This document shows positions 17,952 to 52,400 of a DNA stretch of 64,000 bases, one piece after another; the first letter of the stretch is position 1, and every line of letters begins with the position of its first letter. A program made the position numbers and the translations under genes. This DNA is from Fistulifera solaris. Lineage: Eukaryota > Bacillariophyta > Bacillariophyceae > Naviculales > Stauroneidaceae. The notes below the pieces were generated by a model, which had not been told where the DNA came from, did not search any database, and saw only the letters and a list, made by a program, of their open reading frames with translations. Where the stretch lies: assembly GCA_030295235.1 (NCBI GenBank), contig AP026127.1, positions 188,501-252,500 of the forward strand. Reading direction: 5' to 3'.

Positions 17952-20201
17952 ATGAGCTCGCAGCACGATGACAAGCTTCTGCCACAGTTGCAAGCAGAGT
18001 TGGCGCAGAAAGAAGATGCTTTACTTGAGAAGAATAGTCTCTGTAAAGATCAGGCCGACAAGATCGATGCGTTGGTCAAGCAGATGGTAGAAATGGAGGA
18101 CAATCTAAATCACAGCTACAACCAGACGTTGGAGTCATTGTACGCCAGTATGGTGCAGATGAGGGAAGAAAAAGAGCATTTGATGCAGCAAATAGAAAGC
18201 CTTGAAGCCCAAATGAAAGCTGCCAAACAAGAGCAGGAAGAGGTTCATCAACGAGCGCTGTATTCGGCAAAAGACTCCAAAGAGATGGGTGCCCTTCGCA
18301 AAAGACTTTCCGAGATGGAGGAGCAACTTGTGGAGTCTGATCAGCAGATGCGTTTGTTGCAGAAATCCGCGGAGAAATCACAGGAAGAAAAGCGTCACCA
18401 CAGGGAGCGGTCGCACGCTTTGCAAGCAGAAGTTCTCAAACTGAAGTATCTGCTCAAAGATAAAGCGAATGCTTTACTTGTGGCAAGAATATCTGTCGAT
18501 AAGAAAGCTCAAAATGCGGCAGTCGCAACGCAGTGGCCTTTCATAAACGCAACTGAAGAACTTCGCACAAGAATTGCGGAGATCGAAAGTCGCTTGAGTG
18601 TATCTAACCGACTTGCGGACTACTTGCAAAAGAAACTTCAGAAGGCCGAAGAGCAATGCGATCACTATGAAGAGCAAAAATTCAAGATGTCTGCCGAGCT
18701 CGCGACCCTCAAGCATCAACTTTTGGAAAAGGCGGATCAGCTAGCCATGTCGAGCCAGACGAACGAAAAGCAGGAATCTGAAATCCAGGATTTGTTCAAG
18801 AAACTCCAAGATGCTCAACTAACGCTCGAATCAAACCGGCGAGATGGCGAGCTCAAGATTCAGCAAGCTGTTGAGGCGGCTAAAGCCGGACAAAGCGAGT
18901 TGCTCCACAAAATCTCGCAGCTCGAGTACCGATGCACAGAATCGCACCGACTTGCCGAGTTCGCACAGAGCAGCTTCAATGATTTAAAAGTAGAAAAGGA
19001 AGAAGGCGAAGCCAAGTGTAATGCTACCATCGCCTATCTGGAATTCAAGCTGAAAGAGGCAACCCGCGTCAGTGAGTTCGCCCAGAACACGTTGCACAAA
19101 AAGAATGACGAAATGAAGCAGCTCGAACTATCTTCGATGGGGGAAAAGAAGCGATTGGAGTTTAAACTGACCGAGGCTTCTCGAATGACTGTCTTCCTAC
19201 AGAACAAACTGCAGGATATGGAACGGAAATCATCCGTCGAAATGGTTGATCTTCAGTTCCGTCTCACGGAAGCTACCCGCGTGGCACAGTTCTTGACGAC
19301 AAACGCCAACCGAATGTCGGAAAACATGCAGACGCAGCGCGACGAAATCCGTTCCTTGGAAGAGCAACTGACGGCAACACGCGACGAGCTTGCAGCTGCC
19401 CAGACCGCCATCCAAGCGAAAGACCAAGCACTGGAATCCCATGGCGCTACCATCAACGAGTTGCAGCAACAAGTTCGAGAACTCGAGAGCCGACTGCTGG
19501 TGTCCCAACAACTTTGTGACTTTCTCAAGACGAATCTCAGTCAGGCGGAGGAGATGAAGAATGTCGCAGAAACGGAGCGCGAGGATGTTGAGAAGCAACT
19601 GAATGTTCTCACAAACCAGCTTTCGGAAAGGAAGATGTTTTCTCGTTTGAACGAAGATCCTTGTGAAGATACCACGAAAAGTATGTCAGAATCGGATCAG
19701 GACTCTTTGACGAGTTCCACTGCCGACGACATGGACATCAGTAGAGATTATGAACGCCAGATTGCCGACTTGGAGTTCCGTTTAACAGAGTCCCAGCGCT
19801 TCTCTAAATTCGTCCAGTCGAAACTGCAAACGTTGGATGCTACGCACCAGCAGCAGGTTGCCCAGCATGAAGCTGAGATTGCTCGCTTGAAGTTCAAGGC
19901 CACCGAAAGCTTACGTATTGCGACGTTCGCACAGGATGCCTTCACGAAAGCCACTCAAGAAAAGCAAGCCATCGAATTAGACCGAGCGGCAGAAAAGGCC
20001 AAAGGGATGTTTCAAATCTCCGAAGCCGATCGCATGATCCATTTTTTGTCGAAAAAGCTGAAAGATACCGAGAGCAAGTATGAAGCTAAAATCAAAGAGC
20101 TGGAATACAACCTGGCCGAGGCCACCGCTCGCACTTCAAATAATGGTAACATATTCAGCGAGACGAGAGAAGCATTGTCCGTCGCGTATCCCCACGCTTG
20201 A
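17952..20201 (+). CDS. Coiled-coil protein with a repeated LEF-K/R-L-xEAxR-xxxFxQ unit
   Basis: Intact single-exon gene, 749 aa, unrecognised. Nearly all of it is predicted coiled coil (E, K, Q, L, A rich, few Pro or Gly). A unit of about 20 residues, L-E-(F/Y/S)-(R/K)-L-x-(E/V)-(A/S)-x-R-(hydrophobic)-x-x-(F/Y)-x-Q-x-x-L, recurs about ten times: near residues 208, 323, 363, 402, 433, 511, 607, 646, 685 and 717. Clear copies are LEFKLKEATRVSEFAQNTL, LEFKLTEASRMTVFLQNKL, LQFRLTEATRVAQFL and LEFRLTESQRFSKFVQSKL. Spacing between copies varies from about 30 to 100 residues. A Ser/Asp-rich break occurs near residues 565-595. No signal peptide or membrane span. A structural or cytoskeletal role is plausible but not shown. 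Confidence 0.8.
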   Translation: MSSQHDDKLLPQLQAELAQKEDALLEKNSLCKDQADKIDALVKQMVEMEDNLNHSYNQTLESLYASMVQMREEKEHLMQQIESLEAQMKAAKQEQEEVHQRALYSAKDSKEMGALRKRLSEMEEQLVESDQQMRLLQKSAEKSQEEKRHHRERSHALQAEVLKLKYLLKDKANALLVARISVDKKAQNAAVATQWPFINATEELRTRIAEIESRLSVSNRLADYLQKKLQKAEEQCDHYEEQKFKMSAELATLKHQLLEKADQLAMSSQTNEKQESEIQDLFKKLQDAQLTLESNRRDGELKIQQAVEAAKAGQSELLHKISQLEYRCTESHRLAEFAQSSFNDLKVEKEEGEAKCNATIAYLEFKLKEATRVSEFAQNTLHKKNDEMKQLELSSMGEKKRLEFKLTEASRMTVFLQNKLQDMERKSSVEMVDLQFRLTEATRVAQFLTTNANRMSENMQTQRDEIRSLEEQLTATRDELAAAQTAIQAKDQALESHGATINELQQQVRELESRLLVSQQLCDFLKTNLSQAEEMKNVAETEREDVEKQLNVLTNQLSERKMFSRLNEDPCEDTTKSMSESDQDSLTSSTADDMDISRDYERQIADLEFRLTESQRFSKFVQSKLQTLDATHQQQVAQHEAEIARLKFKATESLRIATFAQDAFTKATQEKQAIELDRAAEKAKGMFQISEADRMIHFLSKKLKDTESKYEAKIKELEYNLAEATARTSNNGNIFSETREALSVAYPHA

Positions 20202-44746: not shown

Positions 44747-45963
44747 GGTCTTTTTTCTCTGTGTATACTTCCGTCGCTGAACAAAGTTCTACTATCCTAA
44801 TCAATTGAAGAAACGAATCAATTTGCAGCTTGTATACAACAAAACAAACTTGTTGTGATTTTGCTTGATGCGATTGCGATAAAATGGCGCAAAATCCTCA
44901 TGACGGCAAACGCGGGTTGCGCTGCGTCATCTTTTTTCATTTTTTATATAGAATTGTCATGCCATAGCGGTACCTGAACTATAGTTACAAAGTGTGTCAG
45001 ACGTTTCGTTGTATTTGGCCTACGTTATTATTTTAGTTCTTGTTGCAATGCAAAAATCGATCAATCATTTGAATCGGTCGTTCCTCTGGAGGACTAAACA
45101 CCTAATAGCAGTATCTTATGCATCAGCTATTGGGTGTATTAAATTTTAATTTCTCGGAAAACCTCCCGGAAATCCATGGAGGGCTGAAAGATATTGTCCC
45201 CATAGATTGTCGACAAGCGGAAACACACGACAATCAATTTTCGCACTTCGTTGAGTTCGACCATGAATCTAAACGGGTTCGACGTTCGTCTCGCTAGAGT
45301 CATGCGCAACCAAACGATTAACACCTTGATAGACGTTGCAGTAGTTCCGGGCATTTTACGGGATGAGAACTTAAACATTCTTATGCCGCTACGGCAAAGG
45401 AAGTTCTACTATTTTTGAATGCAACACGGTGATGATTCATTCGAGAGCCAACGACTTCTCTCTAGCCTATCGCATTGCGTGGCGAACCTGTCCATGACTT
45501 CGTTTTCGACCCATCTCCTAAAGTTGATCGATGCATCAATGCAGAGAGGAATCGATCCGCTTGCGTCTTAATACTGGTCGGCGACCCCGGTGTCGGCCGG
45601 GAGGCGCCAGAGGCGTCTTCCTTGAATTATGCCATCGACTGGATTCCTGTTCGACGACTTCGAAGCTGGAATGTAAATTAGCTGACAACGACGACCTTGG
45701 AGGTCGCCCTTTGGCTGGTGCATTTAGCGAGAATGCGGGCAGGCGATACAAGTCAGATCATTTGATTGGATATCAGAAAAAGGTTTTCTCTATTATGCTC
45801 ACGAAAATTCCGAGATGCTTCTTTGGAATTCGGATTAACTGTCGGCGAAATGTGCCTTTGCATCAAAACCGGAAGCGCCGTGATTTTACGAGGAACTTCG
45901 TGTCGTACGACTTTTCTGCACCGTCATTATTTCTCTTCGATCGATGCTGTACATTTCACGATA
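44747..45963. other. 1.2-kb spacer, no supported gene
   Basis: Holds the promoter of the minus-strand proteasome-like gene and of copy 6. Open frames at 45378-45139 (minus) and 45475-45989 (plus) show no similarity that I can see. The open frame of copy 6 extends to 45766, but the family starts at 45964. Confidence 0.4.
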
Positions 45964-47445
45964 ATGTCAGACGCGATGCAGGACACTAGCCTCTTGTTTG
46001 GTGTGATTCCACCCTCCCTTTGCACACCAGAGCAAGTTGCTACTTGGGATGACGGGAAGGTATTGCACACGTACAAGCTACTTCGAACACCAGTAAATTG
46101 GGGAGAAATCATCCAGTACGGTAACGCCGCTATGGCTATATGGCGGGATAACGGCACCCTTACTTATATTGCCCCGTGCAATGGCGACACCCACTTTCCG
46201 GAATCAAACGAAAGCAAGCCTTCCTTGTGGTTCTACTTAAACCACCTCAAGCTGGACATAACCGGTAATACAGAAAAAGATGTTGCGGAAACGGCTGCAT
46301 TCTTTCTTCAATTGGAGGAACCTACGGGGCAGACCTCTATATTGGACATAACTGGTCACACGCCTGATGATTTTGATTTCCGTGCTGTTGATGTGCAGTG
46401 CTTAGCACATATCTTTGAAGTGGCCCCATTGCGGTGTGTGCGGTTTTGTTGCTTAACACTGAGTGCCGAACAGTCTCGTGTTCTCGCAACAAGACCGCAT
46501 GCCGTGGAGTTGGCATTTTGTGGGTGTTTGTTTGATGATCATGGCGATGCATTTGTGGATGCTTTACTGAGTCGTCAGTCTTTGTTCGGTTCATTGGAAA
46601 TAGAGGACAATGATTTGCTGAGTGACAACAACCTAAAGCGACTTTTGCAAGCTGACGTGCTGAATTATTTGGGCTTACAAAGCTTGAAGAACGAACTCCT
46701 GTTTCTTCCTTTGCCGGCTCGAGTGGATTCTCTTGATTATAGGATGTCGTCAAAATCCCTGATGGAAGATGATTTTCAGCATGCATTCATTGCAGCAAAG
46801 AAGCTATCACTAGTTATTGATCATGATGGACAACAATTTCCGACTGAAGCCTTGATATCCTTTCTGCAGCGTGTGGCTGCTTTGGGTCATTTTGTTTCGC
46901 TGCGATTCTTAGTCATCATGCCAAATCGGTTCATAGCGATTCCAGTCTGTATTGCACACGAACTGATACACGCTACCCTTGCCAATCCTAACTTGGAGGT
47001 TCTTGATTTGTCGTTCTGTAACTGGGACTGGGAACCCCACTTCGAGATACTTTTCGAGGGTATCAAAGATCACAAACAACTCTGCTCTTTGCATCTATGT
47101 GCTCGCAAACCAGCGACTTCGTTCGGGTCTGACTTTTGTCATCTTCGTAAATTGCTTTCCGTTAACCGGAAAATCATTGTTTGGGATGAAAGAGAAAACC
47201 CTTTTTCAGATGGTTCGTCGATTGACGCACTCTACGAACTGAACCGCTTTTATCGTGGTTCGGCGGGACTCGTGGCCGAGTCTCCAGCGGAGCGACAGCT
47301 GCTGCTAGCGTCGGCCTTGATGGAGAACGCGGCCGACAACCTTCAGTGCTCTGCGCTTTTGTTATTTGACCACTTGGATGTGTTGTTTGATCTACTGCAG
47401 TTTGCGCACTTGAACGAACTGTTCGGAGACAATCTTCGATTGTAG
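45964..47445 (+). CDS. Paralogous family copy 6, intact, unknown function
   Basis: 493 aa, uninterrupted. MSDAMQDTSLLFGVIPPSLC, TPEQVATWDDGKVLHTYKLL, AIWRDNGTLTYIAPCNG, EKDVAETAAFFLQLEEPTG, DFRAVDVQCLAHIFEVAP, CLTLSAEQSRVLATRPHAV, CGCLFDDHGDAFVDALLSRQ, NNLKRLLQADVLNYLGL, AALGHFVSLRF, IHATLANPNLEVLDLS, SFGSDFCHLRKLLSVNRKI, YELNRFYRGSAGLVAESPAE and SALLLFDHLDVLFDLLQFA all align with copies 2, 3 and 5. It ends without the basic tail of copies 2 and 3. As the last of the array and intact, it is a good second reference for the family. Function unknown. Confidence 0.85.
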   Translation: MSDAMQDTSLLFGVIPPSLCTPEQVATWDDGKVLHTYKLLRTPVNWGEIIQYGNAAMAIWRDNGTLTYIAPCNGDTHFPESNESKPSLWFYLNHLKLDITGNTEKDVAETAAFFLQLEEPTGQTSILDITGHTPDDFDFRAVDVQCLAHIFEVAPLRCVRFCCLTLSAEQSRVLATRPHAVELAFCGCLFDDHGDAFVDALLSRQSLFGSLEIEDNDLLSDNNLKRLLQADVLNYLGLQSLKNELLFLPLPARVDSLDYRMSSKSLMEDDFQHAFIAAKKLSLVIDHDGQQFPTEALISFLQRVAALGHFVSLRFLVIMPNRFIAIPVCIAHELIHATLANPNLEVLDLSFCNWDWEPHFEILFEGIKDHKQLCSLHLCARKPATSFGSDFCHLRKLLSVNRKIIVWDERENPFSDGSSIDALYELNRFYRGSAGLVAESPAERQLLLASALMENAADNLQCSALLLFDHLDVLFDLLQFAHLNELFGDNLRL

Positions 47446-47851: not shown

Positions 47852-48795
47852 ATGTTATCTCGCGCTCAAACCCGTATTCTGAGCCGCACGAGAATGCTCT
47901 CAACATCCTCATTACGTCACTCTCTCGTCGTTCCTGTCGAACTCGTCAGTGACACCATGTGACCCAACGGTACGCATTTGTACATTGAAGCTTTCTCTTT
48001 CTCTCCTGTTTTCGTGATCTCACTTTCCATTCTGTTGTATCAGGCTACATCGGCAAGAAGCACTTGCAAACCGCCATTCAAACCGTCTTGGATGCACCTC
48101 TCCATCCGGACCGCCCTTTGGCGTTTGCCGTCCTCCGCGTCCCCTTCTTTCTCGAACCACAGTACGATGAAACCAAGCCTTTCATTGAAACAAATCGCGA
48201 ACGCCTCCTCACCAAATGGGGAGCACAATGGCCCCGGCAAAAGCAAACACACAACCTCAAAGGCCGCGGCATCCAAGCCGGGATACCGCATTTCAATTTA
48301 GATCGCTTGGCCTCCAATACCATGGCGTCGCATCGGTTGATTCAATATTTGGGAAAGACGTACGGATTGGATGTTTCCGAAGCGATTTATGATGTTTTGA
48401 ATGTGTATTATTTCGTCGATGGACATTCGTTGAACGATCATCCGCGTCTGGCTCAAGTCGTTGCCGACGCCTTGTCGAATTTATTTGCAAAACGCGCCAT
48501 GCCAGCTCCTACATCAAAAGAATTGCTGGATTTCTTGTCGAGTCAACAGGGCCGCAAAGAAATTCAGGCGGCAACGGCAGCTTTGCAGCAACTGGGAATT
48601 CATAGCATTCCCAAATTCATCATTGAAGGGCAAACGGTGGTGGATGGTGCCGCTTTACCGGATGTCTTTGTACAAGTCTTTCGAGAAATAGAAGAGCGAG
48701 GAACAATAGCGGGAGGTCCCTTGTTTCGAGAAATCTTGGGTGTCTCGACCGAGACCATTGCCCGGGCCAGTCATCATCGTCAATGTGATGTCTAG
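47852..48795 (+). CDS. DsbA/FrnE-like thiol oxidoreductase, candidate selenoprotein (in-frame TGA)
   Basis: Exon 1 is 47852-47969 and exon 2 is 48044-48795, with a 74-nt GT-AG intron. Predicted 289 aa if the TGA at 47960-47962 (codon 37) is read through. The N-terminus MLSRAQTRILSRTRMLSTSS is Arg/Ser-rich like a mitochondrial presequence. The active-site strand reads VELVSDTM-U-PNG-YIGKKHL, against D-T-V-C-P-W-C-Y-I-G-K in FrnE-type DsbA proteins, so TGA sits exactly where the attacking Cys belongs. The rest is clearly that family: FFLEPQYDET, FNLDRLASNTMASHRLIQYL, VLNVYYFVDGHSLNDHPRLA, LGIHSIPKFIIEGQTVVDGA. The second active-site Cys is Gly here. A SECIS-like hairpin lies in the 3' UTR (next entry). 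Alternative: a nonsense mutation or base error at the Cys codon. Confidence 0.78.
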
Positions 48796-48908: not shown

Positions 48909-48974
48909 GATTCTTACTGAGAATGACGAGCCCAGTTACGTCCTTCATGAACGGGTTCTGATAGTCAGACAATC
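48909..48974 (+). promoter_or_regulatory. Candidate SECIS element in the 3' UTR
   Basis: Starts 114 nt after the stop codon of the DsbA-like gene. Lower helix: GATT (48909-48912) with AATC (48971-48974), and CTGA (48917-48920) with TCAG (48965-48968). After a small internal loop comes the SECIS quartet: ATGA at 48923-48926 opposite TGAT at 48959-48962, able to form the tandem G-A pairs. Upper helix: GAGCCC (48928-48933) with GGGTTC (48953-48958), then GTT (48935-48937) with AAC (48950-48952). The short apical loop carries unpaired CC at 48942-48943, a known alternative to AA. Found by eye, not by folding software. Confidence 0.65.
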
Positions 48975-49458: not shown

Positions 49459-52400
49459 ATGCCTTCCCGCAAACGATCACCCTCTTTTGTGGAAGAATCG
49501 AAAGAAGAAGAAACTCCGGCACAACGACTCCTGGCGGCCCTTTTATGGCAGCACTTTCAACGCACAGGTAAGTGAAAATACCCGTCTTACTGCTCAAAAC
49601 ATTACGAAACGAAACACTGATCATTGCTTAGGTCAATCGGCATTGCATACGGCAATTGCGACGGGAGATTTGGCCTTGGCGGCGGCGTTGCTGGAACGAT
49701 GTCCAACGAAGGAGATTCTGATGACACCCGATGCCGAATCGTTGTATACACCTTTGCACGAAGCGATTTATCAACGGCAGTTGAGTTTTGTGTTGCTGCT
49801 CTTACGGACGCCCTCAAAACTACGACGACCCATGGCATTGTTGCAAAATGATGAAACGAATGATTTGCAGTTTATGACAATGGCGGTGGATGCCGAAGGG
49901 CTCACGCCGGCTTGTCTACTCAAACAACTGCAACGCACCGAATTGCAAGCATGTCGTCAACAATTACTGTACGAACCGCGGATTGTAGGATCCTCTGTAT
50001 TGGGAGGACGACAATTTCGGAGTTCCAGTTTTGATTCGTTACAGGCGGAACAGGATGAATTGCATGAACTGGGACAACATTTAGACGCCTTGCGAACGCA
50101 TGATGAAGAAGAAGACGAGCCTATGGCAAGGTACGGATGTGAAGTGCTGACATTCGGAAGAGCCCATCATTGTGCTTTGGGTACAGACTCGTCGGTCGAT
50201 GGTCGTCCTCAACGAGTTCAGTACTTTGCACAAGATTGTGTGGAGCATCACGGAGGAGCGGTGGGTGTGAGTGGTGCTCCTCATCACACGGTGGTGGTTA
50301 CGGCGTCGGGGCAGTTGTATGCCTTTGGCTTGGGCAAAGGAGGACGTCTGGGAACCGGAGATGAAGCACCATGTTCCGTTCCCACGCGTGTCATGGGAGC
50401 CTTGTCGCAACGACATGTCATAGCCGCGGCGGCCGCCGACAATCATACCGTGGCGGTGTGTCGGGATGGGAGTGTCTTTGCGTGGGGCTCGAGCCGATTC
50501 GGACAAATTGGTTCCGGCGGCGATAGTAGTCCGCGTTGTTCACCACGGCGTGTGGATGATTTGAAAGGAATCGTGTGTGTCAGTGTAGCAGCAGGTGAGA
50601 AGCATTCGGTGGCGTTGTCACAGCGTGGGGAAGTCTATGTATGGGGTGATAATACCAACGGTCAATTGGGGATCAGCCGTCGGAACGGCACGCATCGTGT
50701 GCAACGCGTTGAGGCTTTATGGAATTCCAAGAAGATTGCAATTTCAATTGCCGCGTCGTCTCATGCTACACTAGTCTTGACGAAACCAACCGGGACGAAT
50801 CTTCCTGTCAATACAGTGTTTTCGTGGGGACACGGCAGTCACGTTCCTAGCAAGGTGCATTTCGAGCAATGCAACGAGAGTCGCGCCAAAATGGTACAGC
50901 CGGTAGCCATTGCCTGCGCGCGCTATCACAATGTTGTGATCACGGCGGATGGTCTTGTTTATACATGGGGACTACACGCCGACCCCTTGGGCAAGCGGTC
51001 GAATTCACACACAACACAGCCTAGTCTCGTCACTGGGATGTTACCACGGAACGGCGGAGGCGTGGCGGTAGCCGTGTCAGCGTCCGAGAATCATACGGCC
51101 ATTGTTACCGATACGGGTGAGCTGTTTACATGGGGTGCAACGTATGGCAAGAATATTCTTGGTCACGAAGGTGTCAACTGGCAACCGGATCCGAAGCGCG
51201 TGCCCGGCGTCTGTCGAGTGTTTGCGGTAGCGGCTGCTAAAGAGCACACAATCCTGCTCATGGGGGCATCCTTCCCAACGATCAAGCCGGTACCGACTCT
51301 TGGCTCTCTTGGAAGTGTAGCCGCTAGGCGGCTTGCGGAGCACGTTGATTTGTTCAATGTTCTACCAGTTTTGATTGTTGCCAATCGGATTCAGGATGAA
51401 TATCTCCGCGATTATTGCTTGAAATTTATTCATCGAAATTTAGATGGAGTCTTAAATGTTTGCCAAAAGCGGGTTGCAGATCAGTATCTTACGGAAGAAC
51501 TACATGGCGCTTCCATTGAATTTTGTGACGAAGGATCTTTTCACCCCTTGCTGCTTTCAACGCTGGTTGGTTTTCAGGTAAAGGAAACACGCTCTGTACG
51601 ACAGGATTTGCTTTCTCAAACAGACGAATGGCTCGATTATTGCAACAAATTGCTGAGCACCAATCCATATGCGGCCCGAATTGTTGCGAAATACGAGGTC
51701 ACGAAACAAACTAAAGGTATCCTACAGAGAGCACAACTACAAATGGTAAACGAGGAACGTTCTTCGGCTTCTGAAAGGTGCCTTGAGCTCGTCAACAAGA
51801 TGGATCTATCCACTAAATCACAAGCGGAAGTTACCATGAGTTCTTTATCACGAGAAGCGCGACTGATCAAAAAGCGTCTCGGTCAGATAGCCAAACTAGA
51901 GATGAAAAACAGTTCTCTGACAGAGGAAGAGCGAGAGAAGGTATCACGAAAGCTACAGCTGGAGTCGGACCTCCTAGCTGTGGAGCCTGCTATGGAAACC
52001 GTTCGTCTCACTCTTGAACGCATGATAATTGAGCAGCAACGAGAGGAAGCAGCGAAGGTAGAGAAAACAGTGCGAAGAAGTTGTCGCAACTATTCAATTA
52101 GAGGCTCCGGTGAAATCAGCGACCAGCTATAGATGCGAAATATGCCAGATCAACTGCTCGGATGTCATAAACTATGAACTACATTTGAACGGTCGAAAGC
52201 ATCGAAACAAAGTAGCACAGAAAGCGGAGGACGAACAAAGAGAAACTGCAGAAGCTGTCATGAAACAGAGTTTGATCCAGAAAGTACGAGATCCGATAAT
52301 TAACCAGCCTGTTATTGAGCCCCCTCGACGAGGACCTCCAGATTCTTGGAACTCGAAGAAATCAAACTCTTTGCCGAAGTTCAACTTACCTCCTCCGCCG

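Follow-up and report, generated by a model that had tools for sequence, protein, structure and literature searches.

The gene at positions 47852-48795 of the window, the whole 64,000-nucleotide stretch of the Fistulifera solaris contig AP026127.1 analysed here, carries an in-frame TGA at codon 37, and the question it raises is whether this codon ends the gene or is decoded as selenocysteine (Sec). An annotation based on the standard code would stop the gene at codon 37 or begin it downstream, with loss of the active site. The initial annotation had proposed a DsbA/FrnE-like protein with Sec at the catalytic position, and our analyses lead us with high confidence to place the product among the eukaryotic selenoproteins, within the FrnE branch; its UGA codon 37 would be read as Sec under the direction of a SECIS element, and it would act as an oxidoreductase with a lone selenol. 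Judging from its sequence, the gene that seems broken very probably encodes a functional selenium redox enzyme.

Gene structure and family placement

The frame is set by the ATG at 47852, and the gene and its 3' UTR comprise the following features:

47852-47969 (+), exon 1: 36 codons, the TGA, Pro, Asn and the first base of Gly40
47960-47962 (+), TGA, the predicted Sec37 codon, at the first Cys of the family CPxC motif according to the second copy and 24/24 relatives
47970-48043 (+), intron of 74 nt, GT..AG, splitting codon 40 (Gly), at a position shared with the second copy (68 nt there)
48044-48795 (+), exon 2: the remaining DSBA/FrnE domain and the C-terminal tail, ending with the stop TAG at 48793-48795
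48784-48786 (+), Cys287 codon, the sole Cys of the protein, in the C-terminal tail, retained in the second copy
48917-48968 (+), SECIS-like hairpin in the 3' UTR, with an apical AG, not AA

The spliced product counts 289 residues when the TGA is taken as one and, besides the TGA position, contains a single Cys at residue 287 of 289, the corresponding one in the second copy being residue 290 of 292. The part preceding the TGA is rich in Ser, Arg and Thr and may be an organelle presequence. Upstream lies an open frame of 559 residues (45766-47442, +) that matches no Pfam family at E up to 0.001, and downstream a gene (49634-52129, +) with RCC1 repeats, whose start resembles ankyrin at a score under the Pfam cut-off.

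With Cys put at codon 37, the spliced product matched Pfam DSBA (E 8.9e-8; 32.6 bits, above the cut-off of 25.6), while no NCBIfam model was matched over a cut-off. All three PDB chains matched at E up to 1 were either FrnE, in two distinct sequences, or the putative DsbA oxidoreductase SCO1869, and in the alignment with FrnE chain 5cp1 (E 1e-8) the TGA column falls on the first Cys of C-P-W-C. With DSBA above its cut-off and FrnE as the nearest structural relatives, the predicted product belongs to the FrnE branch of the DSBA superfamily. Residues 25-259 were also searched against 301 genomes of the phylum (Chloroflexota) to which locus L024, from an Anaerolinea assembly, belongs, and gave 24 matches in 23 genomes. 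The initial annotation had suggested looking for Cys or Sec at codon 37 of relatives, and Cys it was in all 24 aligned sequences, followed by P-W-C in 23 and by P-Y-C in one. The S-I-P-K-F segment of the window protein, presumably the cis-Pro loop, aligns with G-V-P-F-F and similar segments of the relatives. A scan of bacteria for close relatives gave one locus, L024 itself (52 residues, 35% identity), judged spurious as the remaining domain was not seen in that frame, and a scan of viral contigs for relatives found none.

The second active-site Cys is present in all 24 bacterial relatives and in a paralogue of the same genome with the site U-P-F-C, Gly being found only in the window protein; its absence, part of the original proposal, extends to the second copy, since both copies read U-P-N-G and neither has a C-P-x-C or U-P-x-C dithiol site. 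The protein is therefore to be regarded as a FrnE relative that departs from the family at this point, not as a canonical member. Frame, DSBA match, second copy and the Cys column agree in bearing out an intact two-exon gene whose TGA occupies the place of the motif's first Cys.

The in-frame TGA and the Sec genes of the genome

According to published work Fistulifera solaris has an allodiploid genome made up of homoeologous chromosomes (PMC13276009; PMC5935921), and simultaneous editing of the two homoeologues has been reported for it (PMC13276009). In the 51.7 Mb and 61 contigs scanned its Sec genes sit in pairs on paired contigs. The second copy of the gene, on contig C8, has the TGA at the identical codon and the intron at the identical position. 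Downstream of the TGA the copies are identical at 240 of 252 aligned residues, and the comparison of the 252 codons (50 synonymous and 12 non-synonymous codon differences) gave a dN of 0.025 and a dS of 0.394, i.e., a dN/dS of about 0.06; in the last 36 codons dN was 0.051 and dS 0.437. Constraint was not seen in the 36 aligned codons 5' of the TGA (dN 0.093, dS 0.076, on few sites), a pattern that would suit a presequence. The TGA thus lies on a Cys column, is kept in an orthologue and is followed by constrained codons, the TGA-bearing orthologue being the second copy of the same genome only.

These values bear directly on the reading of the TGA as a true stop, created by a nonsense mutation, that would leave a dead gene or a peptide of 36 residues. 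The unconstrained codons before the TGA and the failure of Rfam to detect a SECIS would agree with such a pseudogene, but the TGA is shared by two copies at a dS of 0.39, sits precisely on the catalytic Cys and precedes 252 codons with a dN/dS of about 0.06, and we consider a pseudogene highly improbable. The TGA could also be removed by alternative splicing, with a donor after 47948 (in GTCAGTGACACC) joining VELVS to YIGKKHL and codons 34-40, together with the active site, being lost. This junction is in frame and free of internal stops in both copies; it nonetheless discards residues that align with the family on either side of the intron, whereas splicing from the exon 1 boundary donors (GTACGC in the window, GTATGT in the second copy) preserves that alignment, and a splice variant of this kind is very unlikely to account for the TGA.

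The genome was searched for two components of the Sec machinery, tRNA-Sec and SepSecS. Matches to tRNA-Sec numbered 22, with six passing the Rfam cut-off, although all 14 control genomes matched as well, five of them over the cut-off. Both C27 (L010, L011) and C29 (L012, L014) carry two tRNA-Sec genes in tandem, separated by about 200 bases, and C3 and C4 have single matches. SepSecS was matched on both C9 and C10.

A TGA was found at the Sec site in all of the ten further loci checked, namely a GPX pair, a SELENOT-like pair, two SELENOM-like pairs and one FrnE pair, the names SELENOT and SELENOM being our assignments from Pfam families and characteristic motifs. The Sec-site motif is ASKU in the GPX pair (L019, L020), YCTSU in the SELENOT-like pair, and CGGU (C41/C40) or CSGU (C3/C4) in the SELENOM-like pairs. 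In the SELENOT-like genes the stretch bearing the TGA scored 20.9 and 20.6 bits, below the Pfam cut-off of 22.6, and the next stretch of the gene was over it. The second FrnE pair is intronless and has its TGA at the first Cys, giving U-P-F-C (L002:1471-2166, +; L001:1474-2169, -); its copies differ by a dN of 0.020 and a dS of 0.355, and by its sequence it is a canonical Sec-FrnE. An MsrA gene with a TGA (L047) was dropped from the Sec genes, because the TGA was read as intronic and the catalytic place is occupied by Cys (GGCFWG).

The decoding of UGA as another amino acid, or plain read-through, would sit well with the atypical SECIS candidate described below; however, the column is Cys in 24/24 relatives and other genes of this genome have TGA at their Sec site, which makes non-Sec decoding extremely improbable. 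Sec is the best reading of the TGA, since both copies retain this codon on the catalytic Cys, with constraint downstream, in a genome with Sec machinery (tRNA-Sec, SepSecS) and other Sec genes. The proposal of Sec at this position is thus upheld, and the selenoprotein reading is well supported; UGA codon 37 would be decoded through the tRNA-Sec machinery, with a SECIS hairpin 3' of the stop codon directing the process.

A SECIS-like hairpin in the 3' UTR

The candidate for this element, which we take as the putative SECIS of the gene, is the hairpin at 48917-48968, starting about 120 bases past the stop codon. Its layout is CTGA-GA-ATGA...TGAT-AG-TCAG, with helix I formed by CTGA/TCAG, a core of ATGA (48923-48926) and TGAT (48959-48962), and helix II by GAGCCC/GGGTTC. 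The second copy has a hairpin at the corresponding aligned position, within a block identical at 58/74 positions, as compared with 72/110 before and 279/420 after it; by eye, helix II of the second copy differs from that of the window by one C-G pair changed to U-A, one G-U pair changed to G-C and one inserted A. On our descriptor the window hairpin scored 28.3 and its partner 25.5, scores that are not blind because the descriptor was devised after the candidate had been noticed. The former ranked first among 117 descriptor hits (from 681 ATGA sites, with the 64-kb window scanned on both strands) and the latter fifth among 137 in a 70-kb stretch of C8, while shuffled UTRs reached the window score in 12 of 2000 trials and that of the second copy in 19 of 2000. 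Descriptor hits above 25 of similar appearance also occur at window position 17952 and in the C8 stretch.

The other Sec genes were compared with the same descriptor. In six of six UTRs (SELENOT-like, SELENOM-like of C3/C4 and UPFC FrnE) the top hit, scoring 22.8-30.8, consists of GAATGA, 6-8 bases, AA and then TGA or CGA. The C3/C4 SELENOM-like pair (L041, L042, minus strand) has two SECIS-like hairpins per 3' UTR, and the UPFC FrnE pair a conserved one with core ATGA and an AACAA loop. The C41/C40 SELENOM-like pair gave a single hit (19.2) in one of its two UTRs, and the GPX pair none above 15; with no convincing SECIS found by the descriptor, the element of the GPX pair may have another form. 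A published search rule places the apical AA or CC 10-13 nt from the core (PMC2375036). The window hairpin misses this rule as there worded, since its AG comes 7 bases from the core and a CC is not reached before 15, and the SELENOT-like, SELENOM-like and UPFC candidates, with AA 6-8 bases from the core, also fall outside it.

With Rfam SECIS_1 nothing was recognised in the four FrnE loci, nor genome-wide among the 133 of 985 first-look candidates that were scored, other Sec genes included; on the 14 control genomes it matched in four, never over the cut-off. Several Sec genes are present and the genome-wide result was nevertheless null; SECIS_1 therefore seems to lack sensitivity for the SECIS form of this genome, and searches that rely on it may miss others. 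Fold energies were ordinary in comparison with shuffles (z of -0.53 and -0.65), and an earlier, cruder SECIS scan placed the window candidate last of the three hits in its own UTR and found nothing for the UPFC pair. The MAFFT alignment of eight SECIS candidates had its helices out of register, and no covariance model was built from it.

The SECIS is the weakest link of the selenoprotein reading. The look into the 3' UTR advised by the initial annotation returned a conserved hairpin with an ATGA/TGA core, but an atypical one, with an apical AG and no Rfam match. A column unrelated to Cys and a 3' UTR devoid of SECIS folds had been named as grounds for abandoning the proposal; what was found is a Cys column and a SECIS candidate, albeit an atypical one.

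The proposed lone selenol and known Sec-containing DsbA/FrnE proteins

The product would be a thiol/disulfide oxidoreductase in which a lone selenol, within U-P-N-G, takes the catalytic role at the usual place of the active site. FrnE proteins have a CPxC site, and the C-terminal CX4C of Deinococcus radiodurans FrnE was proposed to regenerate it (PMC8945050). In our alignment 18 of the 24 bacterial relatives have a pair of Cys in the tail, 28-44 residues past the start of the DVFVQVF segment and spaced as CX4C in 16 of the 18, and six have none; Cys287 lies 41 residues into this tail, in a loose register. Since the neighbouring Cys is absent and the sole tail Cys conserved, the simplest mechanism would have Sec37 as the attacking selenol and Cys287 or glutathione as the resolving thiol. 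In the first case, oxidised Sec37 would be reduced by Cys287 through an internal selenenylsulfide, akin to the role proposed for CX4C in D. radiodurans FrnE; in the second, glutathione would reduce oxidised Sec37 and close the cycle. The initial annotation had suggested a monothiol-type or peroxidase-like role; a purely monothiol mechanism would be one of two options, given the conserved C-terminal Cys. We advance only tentatively, from residue patterns, the idea of a split selenenylsulfide oxidoreductase, in which the FrnE resolving Cys was lost and the tail Cys, a CX4C remnant, may have become the direct partner of Sec37. A tail Cys is absent from the UPFC paralogue; this would be compatible with a division of labour but is no proof of one. 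AlphaFold2, run on exon 2 alone as a single sequence, gave no usable structure (mean pLDDT 44.8).

If codon 37 is read as proposed, the gene shows that a DsbA-type site can retain Sec once the adjacent Cys has been lost, a distant Cys perhaps serving as its partner, and the reason for keeping Sec becomes a testable question. In the literature searched, to the extent of the text it covered, no selenoprotein with UPNG was found, nor a FrnE/DsbA selenoprotein combining UxxG with a tail Cys, nor a description of the split Sec/tail-Cys architecture for a DsbA-type selenoprotein.

Sec-containing DsbA and FrnE proteins are themselves already known, and the unusual feature is U-P-N-G with no neighbouring Cys, as far as the portions of the literature consulted indicate. 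Prokaryotes, Micromonas and primitive chordates are reported to have Sec-DsbA with UxxC, and marine invertebrates to have Sec-DsbA (PMC2874816; PMC3473315), with SECIS elements shown for Ciona and Branchiostoma (PMC2874816); Sec-FrnE has been reported in Mamiellophyceae (PMC6627142). DsbA is also among the algal selenoprotein families of a survey whose text mentions F. solaris (PMC7539508), and this gene may therefore be in its database. The UPFC gene of this genome is like these eukaryotic proteins. The window protein shares with those of Ciona, Branchiostoma and Mamiellophyceae the DSBA/FrnE domain with Sec for the first active-site Cys, but differs from the UxxC form described for eukaryotic Sec-DsbA (PMC2874816) in having Gly for the second Cys and a lone C-terminal Cys. 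Two further likenesses are drawn from published descriptions. DsbA 3 of the Global Ocean Sampling (UxxV), known to us from a table row (PMC2398784), is likewise a DSBA-domain selenoprotein lacking the second Cys, although it comes from a marine microbial metagenome and has Val where the window protein has Gly. DSBA-like proteins of the DR_2335 type have a single conserved Cys, and Sec is not mentioned for them in the text available from PMC8945050. FrnE of D. radiodurans (DR_0659), the best PDB sequence match, shares the domain and likewise has Cys in its C-terminal tail; it has, however, CP(W/F)C and CX4C, with Sec unmentioned in that same text (PMC8945050), where the window protein has U-P-N-G and one tail Cys.
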